Below, one piece after another: positions 19,467-22,833 of a stretch of 33,561 nucleotides of DNA. The position numbers were made by a program, and so were the translations under genes. The stretch is from Actinomyces urogenitalis DSM 15434. Its GTDB lineage: Bacteria; Actinomycetota; Actinomycetes; Actinomycetales; Actinomycetaceae. Where the stretch lies: positions 341,406 to 374,966 of the forward strand of contig NZ_DS999574.1 of assembly GCF_000159035.1 (NCBI RefSeq), given 5' to 3'. The first letter of the stretch is position 1; each line of letters opens with the position of its first letter. The notes under the pieces were generated by a model, which saw nothing but the letters and a program-made list of their open reading frames with translations, was not told where the DNA came from and made no database searches.

Positions 19467-20840
19467 CTAGTGGCGCCAGGCGTCGGAGCGGGCGCGCAGA
19501 CCGGTGGTCAGCCCCCTGGCAGCCATGAAGACCCAGGCGAAGCCAATCCACAGGGCAACCAGGCCAGTGGTCCCCGAACCGAGGAGCCCGCGTCCCACGG
19601 CGATCGCCACAGGGAGGTAGGGCACGAGGGTGACGATCCCCGCCCGGGCGAGGTAGCGCCCGTCGCCGGCGCCCATGAGCACGCCGTCGAAGAGGAAGAC
19701 GGCACCGGCCAGCGGCATCGCCGAGGCGGTGACCAGGAGCGTTGGCCGGGCCGCGGCGATGACGGCAGGGTCGGAGGAGAAGAGGTGTGGCAGCCAAGAG
19801 GAGGCTGTCGCCAGGACGAGCCCGATCACCGCGCCGGTGGCCAGGCCCCAGGCCAGGCACCGGCGCAGGACGGCGTCGATGCTGAGTACCTGGACGGGCT
19901 CACCCGCCGTCGAGGCAGGGGCCTGGTCCGCCTCGGCCTGCCCGAGCGCGGTGCCGATGAGCGCCTGGGTGGCGATGGCCAAGGCGTCGAGCGCGAAGGC
20001 GGAGAAGCTCCACAGGGAGTTGACGACCTGGTGGGCCGCGAGCGGGACCTGGCCGAGCGCCGTCGCCGCCCAGACCGTGGCGAGGATGGCCACGCGCAGG
20101 GACAGCGTGCGCACCAGCAGGGGCAGGCCGGCGCCTAGGGAGGTGCCCAGGCCGGCCCGATGGGGCCGCAGAGAGACCTGGGCATGGCGGGCCGCGCGGG
20201 TGACCGGCAGGGTCAGTGCCACTGCCATGAGGCTCTGGCTGATCGCGGTCCCGGCTCCCGAGCCGGCGATCCCGGTGTGCAGTGCGTAGAGGAAGGTCGC
20301 GTTGAGGGCCACGTTGGCCGCGGCGCCGGCTGCGGCGACGACGAAGGGTGTGCGGGTGTCCAGCAGCCCGCGCAGGGTGCCGGTGGCGGCGAAGACGACG
20401 AGCATGCCTGGCAGGCCCGGGGCTGAGGCGCGCAGGTAGGCCACGGCCGCATCGGCGAGCTCGCCGCGGGCACCGAGGGCGTGGGTGACCCAGGGGGCCA
20501 TGATCCACAGCAGCAGGAAGGCGGCGAGCCCCAGGATCGCGGCCAGCCACAGACCGTCGACGCCTGCGCGCAGTCCGCCAGCGCGGTCGCCGGCTCCGAA
20601 GCGGCGGGCGGTGGTCGCCGTCGTCGCGTAGGCCAGGAAGACGAAGAGGCCGACGATGGTGGTCAGGACCGTGGAGGCGAGGGACAGCCCCGCCAGGCTC
20701 GTGGCGCCGAGGTGGCCGACCATGGCGGAGTCGATGAGCACGAAGAGTGGCTCGGCGACCAGGGCCCCGAGGGCAGGCAGGGCGAGGGAGAGGATCTGGC
20801 GGTTCAGGCCTGTGGGGGCCAGGGGGCGGTGGCGGGTCAT
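19467..20840 (-). CDS. MATE-family efflux transporter (DinF-like)
   Basis: An inner-membrane exporter of about 457 residues with twelve hydrophobic spans. The N-terminal LNRQILSLALPALGALVAEP, LFVLIDSAMVGHLGATSLAG and the segment TTATTARRFGAGDRAGG are typical of the DinF branch of MATE proteins, which exchange Na+ or H+ for cationic compounds. I chose the ATG at 20840 (MTRHRPLAPTG) since MATE proteins begin just before the first span. The frame extends to a GTG at 20921, adding residues without family resemblance. No ribosome site is clear for either. It is divergent from dnaB across the DnaA-box cluster. Substrate unknown. Confidence 0.9.
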   Translation of the reverse strand: MTRHRPLAPTGLNRQILSLALPALGALVAEPLFVLIDSAMVGHLGATSLAGLSLASTVLTTIVGLFVFLAYATTATTARRFGAGDRAGGLRAGVDGLWLAAILGLAAFLLLWIMAPWVTHALGARGELADAAVAYLRASAPGLPGMLVVFAATGTLRGLLDTRTPFVVAAAGAAANVALNATFLYALHTGIAGSGAGTAISQSLMAVALTLPVTRAARHAQVSLRPHRAGLGTSLGAGLPLLVRTLSLRVAILATVWAATALGQVPLAAHQVVNSLWSFSAFALDALAIATQALIGTALGQAEADQAPASTAGEPVQVLSIDAVLRRCLAWGLATGAVIGLVLATASSWLPHLFSSDPAVIAAARPTLLVTASAMPLAGAVFLFDGVLMGAGDGRYLARAGIVTLVPYLPVAIAVGRGLLGSGTTGLVALWIGFAWVFMAARGLTTGLRARSDAWRH

Positions 20841-20948
20841 CGGTAGCGCAGCTGGTGATCGGCGGGACCACGCAAGGTGGTCATGACGGGCCTGCAGTGT
20901 CTCACGGCAGGTGTCTGGCACCTGGGAATCTCATCCTCACCTTGAGGT

Positions 20949-21166
20949 TTGTCCACAGAATGGGCATGTTATCCACATCTTTGACGAGTGGTTGCGCATC
21001 CGGCGAGCCACAGGGTCGATTGCCGACCTTTCGTTGCAAGAACGGGGCAGTGTTCAGCGCATCCACACAAGGGCTCATCTTGTCCCCAGAGTTATCCACA
21101 TTGCGGCCCCCTCTCTCACCACAGGAGGCACGGGGTGTTCCACAGCAGTAGGGTGGGTTGTCCACA
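20949..21166 (+). promoter_or_regulatory. Cluster of DnaA boxes upstream of dnaB
   Basis: The 460-bp stretch before dnaB has four strong DnaA boxes, all in the same orientation: TTGTCCACA at 20949-20957, TTATCCACA at 20969-20977, TTATCCACA at 21092-21100 and TTGTCCACA at 21158-21166. TTATCCACA is the general consensus and TTGTCCACA the form favoured in Streptomyces. Weaker two-mismatch copies lie at 21059-21067, 21080-21088 and 21136-21144. No AT-rich unwinding element and no dnaA or dnaN gene is seen here. The likely roles are DnaA control of dnaB or titration of DnaA. Confidence 0.75.
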
Positions 21167-21300
21167 TCAGGTGCCGCACGAGCGTGTTGCGACGGGCGCA
21201 GCCGCTGGCTAGGGTCACGCGCGCGGCGTGCTGCCCGCACCGCCGGTCTGCGGTTGTTGCGGCGCGATCGTGTGGTGCCCAGGTCGGTCAGGAGCAGCGG

Positions 21301-22833
21301 ATGACGGAGATGGATCCGGCGATCGAGCCGGTCAGTGACGAGCGGCCAGGCCGCGAGCGTTCCGGACGCTGGGACGAGGGTGAGGGACCTGGTCCTCGTG
21401 GGCACCGTGAGGGCGGTTCCGGGCGCGCAGATACTGCGGGCTCTGGTGGAGCCCGATTCGACGGCGTCTTCGACCGCGTCCCGCCTCAGGACCTGGCCGC
21501 CGAGATGGCGACCCTGGGTGGCATGCTCATGAGCAAGGAAGCCATCACCGACGTCATCGAGGTGCTGCGCGGACCGGAGTTCTACAAGCCGGCCCACGAG
21601 ATGATCTTTGACGCGATCGTCGAGGTCTACAACCGCTCCCAGCCTGCTGACGCCCTGCTCGTGGGAGATGAGCTGGCCAAGCGCGGCGAGCTGGAGCTCG
21701 TGGGCGGCGCCCCCTACCTCGCTGACCTCATGGGGCAGGTGCCCACGGCGGCCAACGCCGGTTACTACGCCCGCATCGTCAAGGAGAAGTCCCTCATGCG
21801 CGGCCTGGTGCAGGCCGGTACCCGCATTACCCAGCTGGGCTACTCCACCGACGCCGGGGACATCGACGAGCTCGTGACCATGGCGGAGGCGGAGGTCTAC
21901 GCCGTCGCCCACCGCGAGGGGGAGCGGGAGGACTACTCTGCCGTCGGCGAGCTGCTCAATGACGCCAATATGGAGATCGAGGCCGGCCAGTCGCGTGAGC
22001 ACGGTCAGATGACCGGTGTGGCCACGGGCTTCGCTGAGCTCGATGAGCTGACGGGCGGGCTCAAGGGCGGGCAGATGATCATCGTCGCGGCGCGTCCGGC
22101 CATGGGTAAGTCGACCCTCGCCGTCGACTTCTGCCGCTCGGCCTCGATCCATGCTCGGGACCACAACGGCAATCCCTTCACCAGCTGCTACTTCTCCCTG
22201 GAGATGGGCCGCATGGAGCTGATGATGCGCATTCTCTCCGCCGAGTCCGGGGTGGAGATGACTAAGCTGCGCGGCGGCAAGTTGATGGATGATCGCGACT
22301 GGAAGGACGTTGCCTCGGTCTACCACCAGGTCAGTGAGGCGCCTCTGTTCATCGACGACTCCCCGAACCTGACGATGCCGGAGATCCGTTCTAAGGCGCT
22401 GCGGCTCAAACAGCAGCAGGGGCTCGGGCTCATGGTCATCGACTACCTCCAGCTCATGAGCTCCGGTAAGCGGGTGGAGTCGCGTCAGCAGGAGGTCAGT
22501 GAGTTCTCCCGTTCGCTCAAGCTCCTGGCCAAGGAGCTGGACATCCCGGTGGTAGCCGTCGCCCAGCTCAACCGTGGTCCTGAGCAGCGCACCGGCAACA
22601 AGCCGCAGATGTCTGACCTGCGTGAGTCTGGTTCGCTGGAGCAGGACGCTGACATCATCATGCTGCTGCACCGCCCGGAGTACTACCAGCCCGAGGAGCG
22701 CCCCGGCGAGGCGGACATCATCGTGGCCAAGCACCGCAACGGCTCGACCCGCACGATTCCCGTGGCCTTCCAGGGGCACTTGTCCCGCTTTGCCAACATG
22801 GCGCGGGACATGGCTCCGGAGCCGGAGTACTGA
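21301..22833 (+). CDS. dnaB: Replicative DNA helicase DnaB
   Basis: A 510-residue hexameric helicase that unwinds the fork. A Gly/Arg/Glu-rich extension of about 55 residues precedes the N-terminal domain (VPPQDLAAEMATLGGMLMSK). The RecA-like ATPase domain has Walker A ARPAMGKST with K270, and Walker B LGLMVIDYLQLM, followed by the DnaB motifs VAVAQLNRGPEQR and SDLRESGSLEQDADIIMLLH. The length is that of an uninterrupted helicase; there is no intein. AGGAG at 21290-21294 supports the ATG at 21301. The frame stays open for 390 bases upstream, but those codons overlap the DnaA boxes and show no protein-like content. Confidence 0.97.
   Translation: MTEMDPAIEPVSDERPGRERSGRWDEGEGPGPRGHREGGSGRADTAGSGGARFDGVFDRVPPQDLAAEMATLGGMLMSKEAITDVIEVLRGPEFYKPAHEMIFDAIVEVYNRSQPADALLVGDELAKRGELELVGGAPYLADLMGQVPTAANAGYYARIVKEKSLMRGLVQAGTRITQLGYSTDAGDIDELVTMAEAEVYAVAHREGEREDYSAVGELLNDANMEIEAGQSREHGQMTGVATGFAELDELTGGLKGGQMIIVAARPAMGKSTLAVDFCRSASIHARDHNGNPFTSCYFSLEMGRMELMMRILSAESGVEMTKLRGGKLMDDRDWKDVASVYHQVSEAPLFIDDSPNLTMPEIRSKALRLKQQQGLGLMVIDYLQLMSSGKRVESRQQEVSEFSRSLKLLAKELDIPVVAVAQLNRGPEQRTGNKPQMSDLRESGSLEQDADIIMLLHRPEYYQPEERPGEADIIVAKHRNGSTRTIPVAFQGHLSRFANMARDMAPEPEY

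Follow-up and report, generated by a model that had tools for sequence, protein, structure and literature searches.

Groups of DnaA boxes that titrate DnaA include datA of E. coli and clusters in Streptomyces, among which D78, H24, and H69 are reportedly counted. Class I activators such as CRP have a proximal site near -60, and their positions show helical periodicity. The closest described system for the locus considered here is that of the mycobacteria: according to the cited parts of PMC7738170, the region upstream of dnaB was bound by M. tuberculosis DnaA in vitro and by M. smegmatis DnaA in vivo. The dnaB-upstream site (Rv0057 region) is one of five regions in which DnaA was highly enriched in M. 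tuberculosis, and ChIP-seq in M. smegmatis revealed homologues of those five (PMC7738170, same parts). The DnaA I282T variant showed reduced binding upstream of dnaB, with under-expression of dnaB, an effect on the M. tuberculosis gene that could be indirect; in these portions of the text Caulobacter is cited as consistent and as the sole example outside mycobacteria (PMC7738170). As for the boxes themselves, according to the cited part of PMC4285127 the high-affinity box is TTGTCCACA in M. tuberculosis and Streptomyces coelicolor and TTATCCACA in several other bacteria. Among the papers listed in our search, only PMC7738170 turned up on DnaA at dnaB. The same search, which left subscription journals mostly uncovered, found no literature on class-wide conservation or promoter register of dnaB boxes and nothing on binding or expression in Actinomyces. 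A DnaA site upstream of dnaB is thus already known in Mycobacterium.

We analyzed a stretch of 33,561 nucleotides from Actinomyces urogenitalis DSM 15434 (the window), which encodes a DnaB whose best-matching named relatives are from Actinomyces species. The earlier note on this DNA had described four DnaA boxes and at least three weaker ones, all in a single orientation, within a 460-bp gap ahead of dnaB. The gap was confirmed at positions 20841-21300, and the boxes at their exact coordinates: four exact boxes start at 20949, 20969, 21092, and 21158 on the plus strand between the MATE gene and dnaB, and no box at two or fewer mismatches from TTRTCCACA was found on the minus strand of the gap. 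The features of the locus are as follows, with box centres given relative to the predicted dnaB start site.

19467..20840, minus strand: divergent MATE-family transporter gene (PF01554), start at 20840, the other border of the gap
20931, plus strand: weak box TCATCCTCA, at most two mismatches from TTRTCCACA
20949..20957, plus strand: DnaA box TTGTCCACA, exact, centre at about -269, with column conservation
20969..20977, plus strand: DnaA box TTATCCACA, exact, centre at about -249
21059..21067, plus strand: weak box GCATCCACA, two mismatches, about -159
21080..21088, plus strand: weak box TTGTCCCCA, one mismatch, about -138
21092..21100, plus strand: DnaA box TTATCCACA, exact, centre at about -126, a position seen again in other families
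21136..21144, plus strand: weak box TGTTCCACA, two mismatches from TTRTCCACA, about -82, its CCACA kept in the genus alignment
21158..21166, plus strand: promoter-proximal DnaA box TTGTCCACA, exact, centre at about -60
21187..21192, plus strand: predicted -35 element TTGCGA of dnaB, from the pattern TTG-N16..18-TANNNT found in 49/49 congeners
21210..21215, plus strand: predicted -10 element TAGGGT of dnaB, from the same pattern, with an inferred start near 21222
21301..22833, plus strand: dnaB, replicative DNA helicase of 510 aa (PF00772, PF03796), ATG at 21301

Exact matches to TTRTCCACA number 27 in the genome (2,702,812 bases in 67 contigs), and the dnaB gap holds their sole group of four, for which uniform scatter predicts about 5e-8 groups. 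With the pattern TTWTCCACA at one or fewer mismatches, nine matches were obtained in the window versus 2.5 ± 1.6 in shuffles. Consensus boxes near the predicted promoter are thus in excess of chance, as expected of a member of a DnaA regulon. The boxes at 20949 and 20969 lie 20 bp apart start-to-start, a same-strand spacing that was also seen in 39/49 congeners; this pair is the sole genome match to TCCACA-N14/15-TCCACA, and the reversed control pattern likewise has one match. Another exact pair, consisting of two inverted TTATCCACA boxes with starts 37 bp apart, was observed at C66:477255-477300 (locus L012), on a contig without dnaA.

To assess conservation, boxes differing from TTRTCCACA at no more than one position were counted in the 600 bp before the DnaB match, and the next 600 bp upstream (-1200 to -600; 400 bp for 19 of the 49 congeners) served as a control. 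The genus set comprised 49 genomes, A. urogenitalis included. For the class, 158 genomes were searched and 151 matched (own genome included); 112 were retrieved and used, leaving out the own genome and split or contig-edge matches. Two of these (G216 and G238) had too little upstream DNA, so that 110 were kept. The phylum set consisted of 21 of the best 30 loci, with two loci at contig edges (L137 and L138) and seven own or class members left out. Several class DnaB matches (e.g., in G086, G110, G187, G206, and G226) fell into two pieces within long open frames, a pattern that inteins in dnaB would produce.

At least two boxes were present upstream of dnaB in 49/49 congeners, 92/110 class genomes, and 5/21 of the best-matching further phylum loci, against 1/49, 4/110, and 0/21, respectively, in the control stretch and 0.4, 1.5, and 0.1 genomes, respectively, in dinucleotide shuffles. 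The class genomes with fewer than two boxes numbered 18/110, and in 24 of the 34 families of this set one or more genomes carry two or more boxes. Boxes are therefore kept upstream of orthologous dnaB genes, which is a further mark of a DnaA regulon. The earlier note had made conservation in close relatives a check on its proposal, and the result in all 49 congeners bears it out. Named actinobacterial dnaB loci carried at least two boxes in 22/23 cases; at a locus of Streptomyces sp. ISL-87 (L065), which encodes a DnaB 49% identical that is perhaps a second copy, zero boxes were found upstream. Outside the Actinomycetota, where 54 of 57 loci were used and three were left out for short upstream DNA, at least two boxes occurred in 8/54 near stretches and 2/54 far ones. 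In the genus alignment, the box columns averaged 1.54 bits versus 0.58 elsewhere in the gap; since adjacent columns and kindred genomes are not independent, we put weight on this difference in bits rather than on a p-value. The boxes lie on the same strand in 172/198 cases in the genus and 289/365 in the class.

The position of the boxes was then compared with that of a predicted dnaB promoter, the start site of which (21222) is itself a prediction that assumes a 7-bp step from the -10 element. Each of the 49 congeners has a single occurrence of the pattern TTG-N16..18-TANNNT in the 600 bp preceding dnaB. In the 250 bp nearest to the DnaB match the pattern was found in 49/49 congeners and 38/110 class genomes, and in a control stretch (-1000 to -750) in 0/49 and 2/110, respectively. 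The strict pattern together with an upstream box was found in 47/110 class genomes, the pattern being missing from 63/110. A consensus-based promoter scan reported no promoter upstream of dnaB, so the predicted core promoter would be weak at best. All 198 genus boxes lie upstream of the pattern, with 0/198 overlapping or following it, and in the 47 class genomes having the pattern 176 boxes lie upstream, two overlap, and four lie downstream. The centre of the nearest plus-strand box falls between -59 and -61 in 26/49 congeners and at -60 or -61 in 23/47 class genomes with the pattern. The other 23 congeners have no plus-strand box (at most one mismatch) centred at -60 ± 1, and in 12 of these the nearest lies at -124. 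Further recurring positions fall near -48, -72, -82, -105, and -126. In A. urogenitalis the exact boxes are centred at -60, -126, -249, and -269 and the weaker ones at -82, -138, and -159.

For the analysis of periodicity, each family was counted once per distance, and the results were compared with 2000 random draws. The period was 10.7 bp for box-to-box distances (vector strength 0.67) and 10.9 bp for box-to-promoter distances (vector strength 0.79), both exceeding the 2000 draws; the two far boxes of A. urogenitalis, at 17.3 and 19.2 turns, fit this lattice less well. Box centres between -200 and -43 in 14 families outside the genus gave a vector strength of 0.82 at 10.95 bp. Because distances within a genome are not independent, shifting the promoter family by family is the fairer test of phase; under such shifts the vector strength reached a maximum of 0.71, and 0/1000 attained 0.82. 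Five decoy promoter patterns were paired with an upstream box in 1-18 of the 110 class genomes versus 47 for the real pattern. Vector strengths were 0.66-1.0 for four of the decoys, each with just 2-10 distances, and 0.50 for the most frequent one, which had 14 distances in 18 genomes; with so few distances the decoys are little informative on phase, and the family-wise shift is the real control. The boxes thus have a preferred position relative to the predicted promoter, as expected under a DnaA regulon.

From these sequence patterns we propose that the upstream DnaA-binding array probably activates the dnaB promoter. Several DnaA molecules would occupy largely one face of the DNA in a single orientation. 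The DnaA at about -60 would sit like a class I activator beside RNA polymerase at the weak promoter TTGCGA-N17-TAGGGT, and others, about 2-19 helical turns further upstream, would stabilize it cooperatively, so that helicase supply would track DnaA activity. The array, which lies about 53 kb from the dnaA-dnaN spacer, would incidentally retain some DnaA once duplicated early in the cycle. We infer that Actinomyces DnaA binds the boxes, that the predicted promoter is the real dnaB promoter, that the effect of DnaA on dnaB is activation and not repression, and that DnaA contacts RNA polymerase there. A one-face, one-orientation array ahead of a weak core promoter, with its last box at -60, is what a class I-type activator with cooperative upstream sites would be expected to show. 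The earlier suggestion that DnaA controls dnaB gains support from the conserved spacing, and the mycobacterial binding data in the cited parts of PMC7738170 agree with it.

Four other readings of the array were weighed against this proposal. That the array is a replication origin, or part of one, has next to no probability. Its multiple intergenic DnaA boxes would suit an origin, as might the base composition of the gap, where 60-bp bins range over 55-77% G+C and three bins, at 55-57%, fall under the local average of about 67%. The genes dnaN (307730-308956) and dnaA (309340-310917), their families confirmed, lie together on the minus strand of contig C67 beside recF, gyrB, and gyrA, about 51-55 kb from the array, which is itself about 53 kb from the dnaA-dnaN spacer. 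That spacer (L010:13958-14340) holds zero exact boxes; its boxes are diverged, two of them one mismatch off the consensus, with TTGTCCACG, CTGTCCACG, and TCGTCCACA following one another at steps of 11-12 bp; since this presumed oriC has no exact consensus box, the dnaB array is the richer of the two in consensus boxes. The GC skew, which the earlier note had proposed as a way of placing oriC, was positive in 12 of 16 bins of 5 kb from 295 to 375 kb (negative at 295, 335, 350, and 355 kb), and within this range it showed no lasting change of sign at dnaB (362 kb). Having neither a skew switch nor adjacent dnaA and dnaN genes, the array lies near the origin and is very unlikely to be the origin itself; the origin reading is rejected on the skew and the location of dnaA-dnaN, and oriC is presumed to lie at dnaA-dnaN. 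A lone exact DnaA box was also observed at C67:311023 (L010:16024), some 100 bp ahead of where dnaA starts, and by analogy with the mycobacterial rpmH-dnaA site it is possibly an autoregulation site. Very little probability attaches also to the boxes serving the divergent MATE transporter instead of dnaB. A divergent MATE match lies upstream of dnaB in 48/49 congeners, as this reading would have it, but the phasing of the boxes fits the promoter pattern on the dnaB side, and the boxes persist where no MATE match lies upstream. When the class genomes were typed by tblastn over the 1.2-1.5 kb upstream of dnaB, at least two boxes were found in 37/41 with a divergent MATE match, in 35/44 where a co-directional rplI was matched and MATE was not, and in 20/24 with neither; the single genome with an inverted rplI match was without two boxes. 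As the counts are similar whichever neighbor lies upstream, the boxes travel with dnaB and not with the other gene, making MATE an unlikely target.

The remaining two readings keep DnaA at the site and differ in what it would do there. Some promoters elsewhere are repressed by DnaA, and a same-strand, phased array could seed a spreading filament, so DnaA oligomers might spread or loop over the dnaB promoter and shut it off after initiation. We consider such repression unlikely, mainly because the promoter pattern is free of overlapping boxes in the genus; few of the class boxes overlap or follow it either, and a weak core promoter suits an activator. The lower dnaB expression that accompanies weaker binding of M. 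tuberculosis DnaA I282T at dnaB (PMC7738170, cited parts) also speaks against it. It is likewise quite unlikely that the array is mainly a DnaA-titrating or recycling site of the datA or DARS kind, which would limit initiation with dnaB as a mere neighbor. The array does have many boxes outside oriC and close to the origin, as such sites do, and nowhere else in the genome are exact boxes grouped as densely. Moreover, the distance from dnaA to dnaB is 35-126 kb in 17/17 single-contig congeners, so the site would be duplicated soon after initiation, and a degree of titration is inevitable. However, titration needs no fixed promoter distance or helical register, yet both recur over many families; the boxes also hold their strand relative to dnaB, and the cluster is present with either MATE or rplI upstream. 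Titration is the weaker account because it leaves the promoter register unexplained, and the conserved spacing to the promoter pattern on the dnaB side favors control by DnaA over pure titration.

A second site was assessed beside the homologue of mycobacterial Rv0011c, which we take to be crgA. Among the best 30 of the 151 matching genomes (L309-L338), 26/30 class genomes had at least two boxes just downstream of crgA, in the stretch 240-590 bp past the beginning of the crgA match, versus 1/205 other windows of the same loci. A DnaA-box site beside crgA thus looks widespread in the class. In A. urogenitalis no box (at most one mismatch) was found at this place downstream of crgA. A five-box cluster was observed in this genome at C67:299485-299685 (L010:4486-4686), about 4 kb from crgA, between a rhomboid gene and the tRNA-Ala and tRNA-Ile genes near gyrA. 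For the mycobacterial Rv0010c-Rv0011c DnaA site, the cited part of PMC7738170 states no obvious correspondence in other species.

Activation of dnaB by the upstream array may extend well beyond one genome. A broader reading, which we hold tentatively as quite possible rather than probable, is that of an ancient, class-wide DnaA-driven dnaB promoter, with a one-sided, class I-like array in helical register that couples helicase supply to the initiator and that, together with the crgA-side site, would make up the core of a DnaA regulon ancestral to the Actinomycetes. In actinomycetes, helicase supply is probably governed by the initiator that loads the helicase, and a peculiarity of one genome would thereby become a rule that can be tested. 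Which mutations should break the control can be read from the favored box positions, at -60, -126, and further steps of about 10.9 bp, and two experimentally known mycobacterial DnaA sites, beside dnaB and crgA, would be placed in an evolutionary frame.

The array shares with the Mycobacterium site (PMC7738170, cited parts) a DnaA site upstream of dnaB. Binding is experimental there, whereas the Actinomyces array is known from its sequence, and box spacing, strand, and promoter geometry are not given in those parts of the source. The presumed oriC in the dnaA-dnaN spacer of the same genome likewise has intergenic DnaA boxes, and its 11-12 bp box steps are also found in dnaB-upstream regions of the class; it is, however, a separate locus 53 kb off, and the dnaB site is without a skew switch. 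Like the CRP-type class I activators, the dnaB array has a proximal site near -60 and helically periodic positions, but DnaA is an initiator, and its contact with the polymerase here is proposed from box geometry. Finally, the datA-type clusters resemble the array in having several boxes outside oriC and close to the origin, whereas the dnaB boxes hold a helical register to the promoter pattern and lie mostly on one strand.
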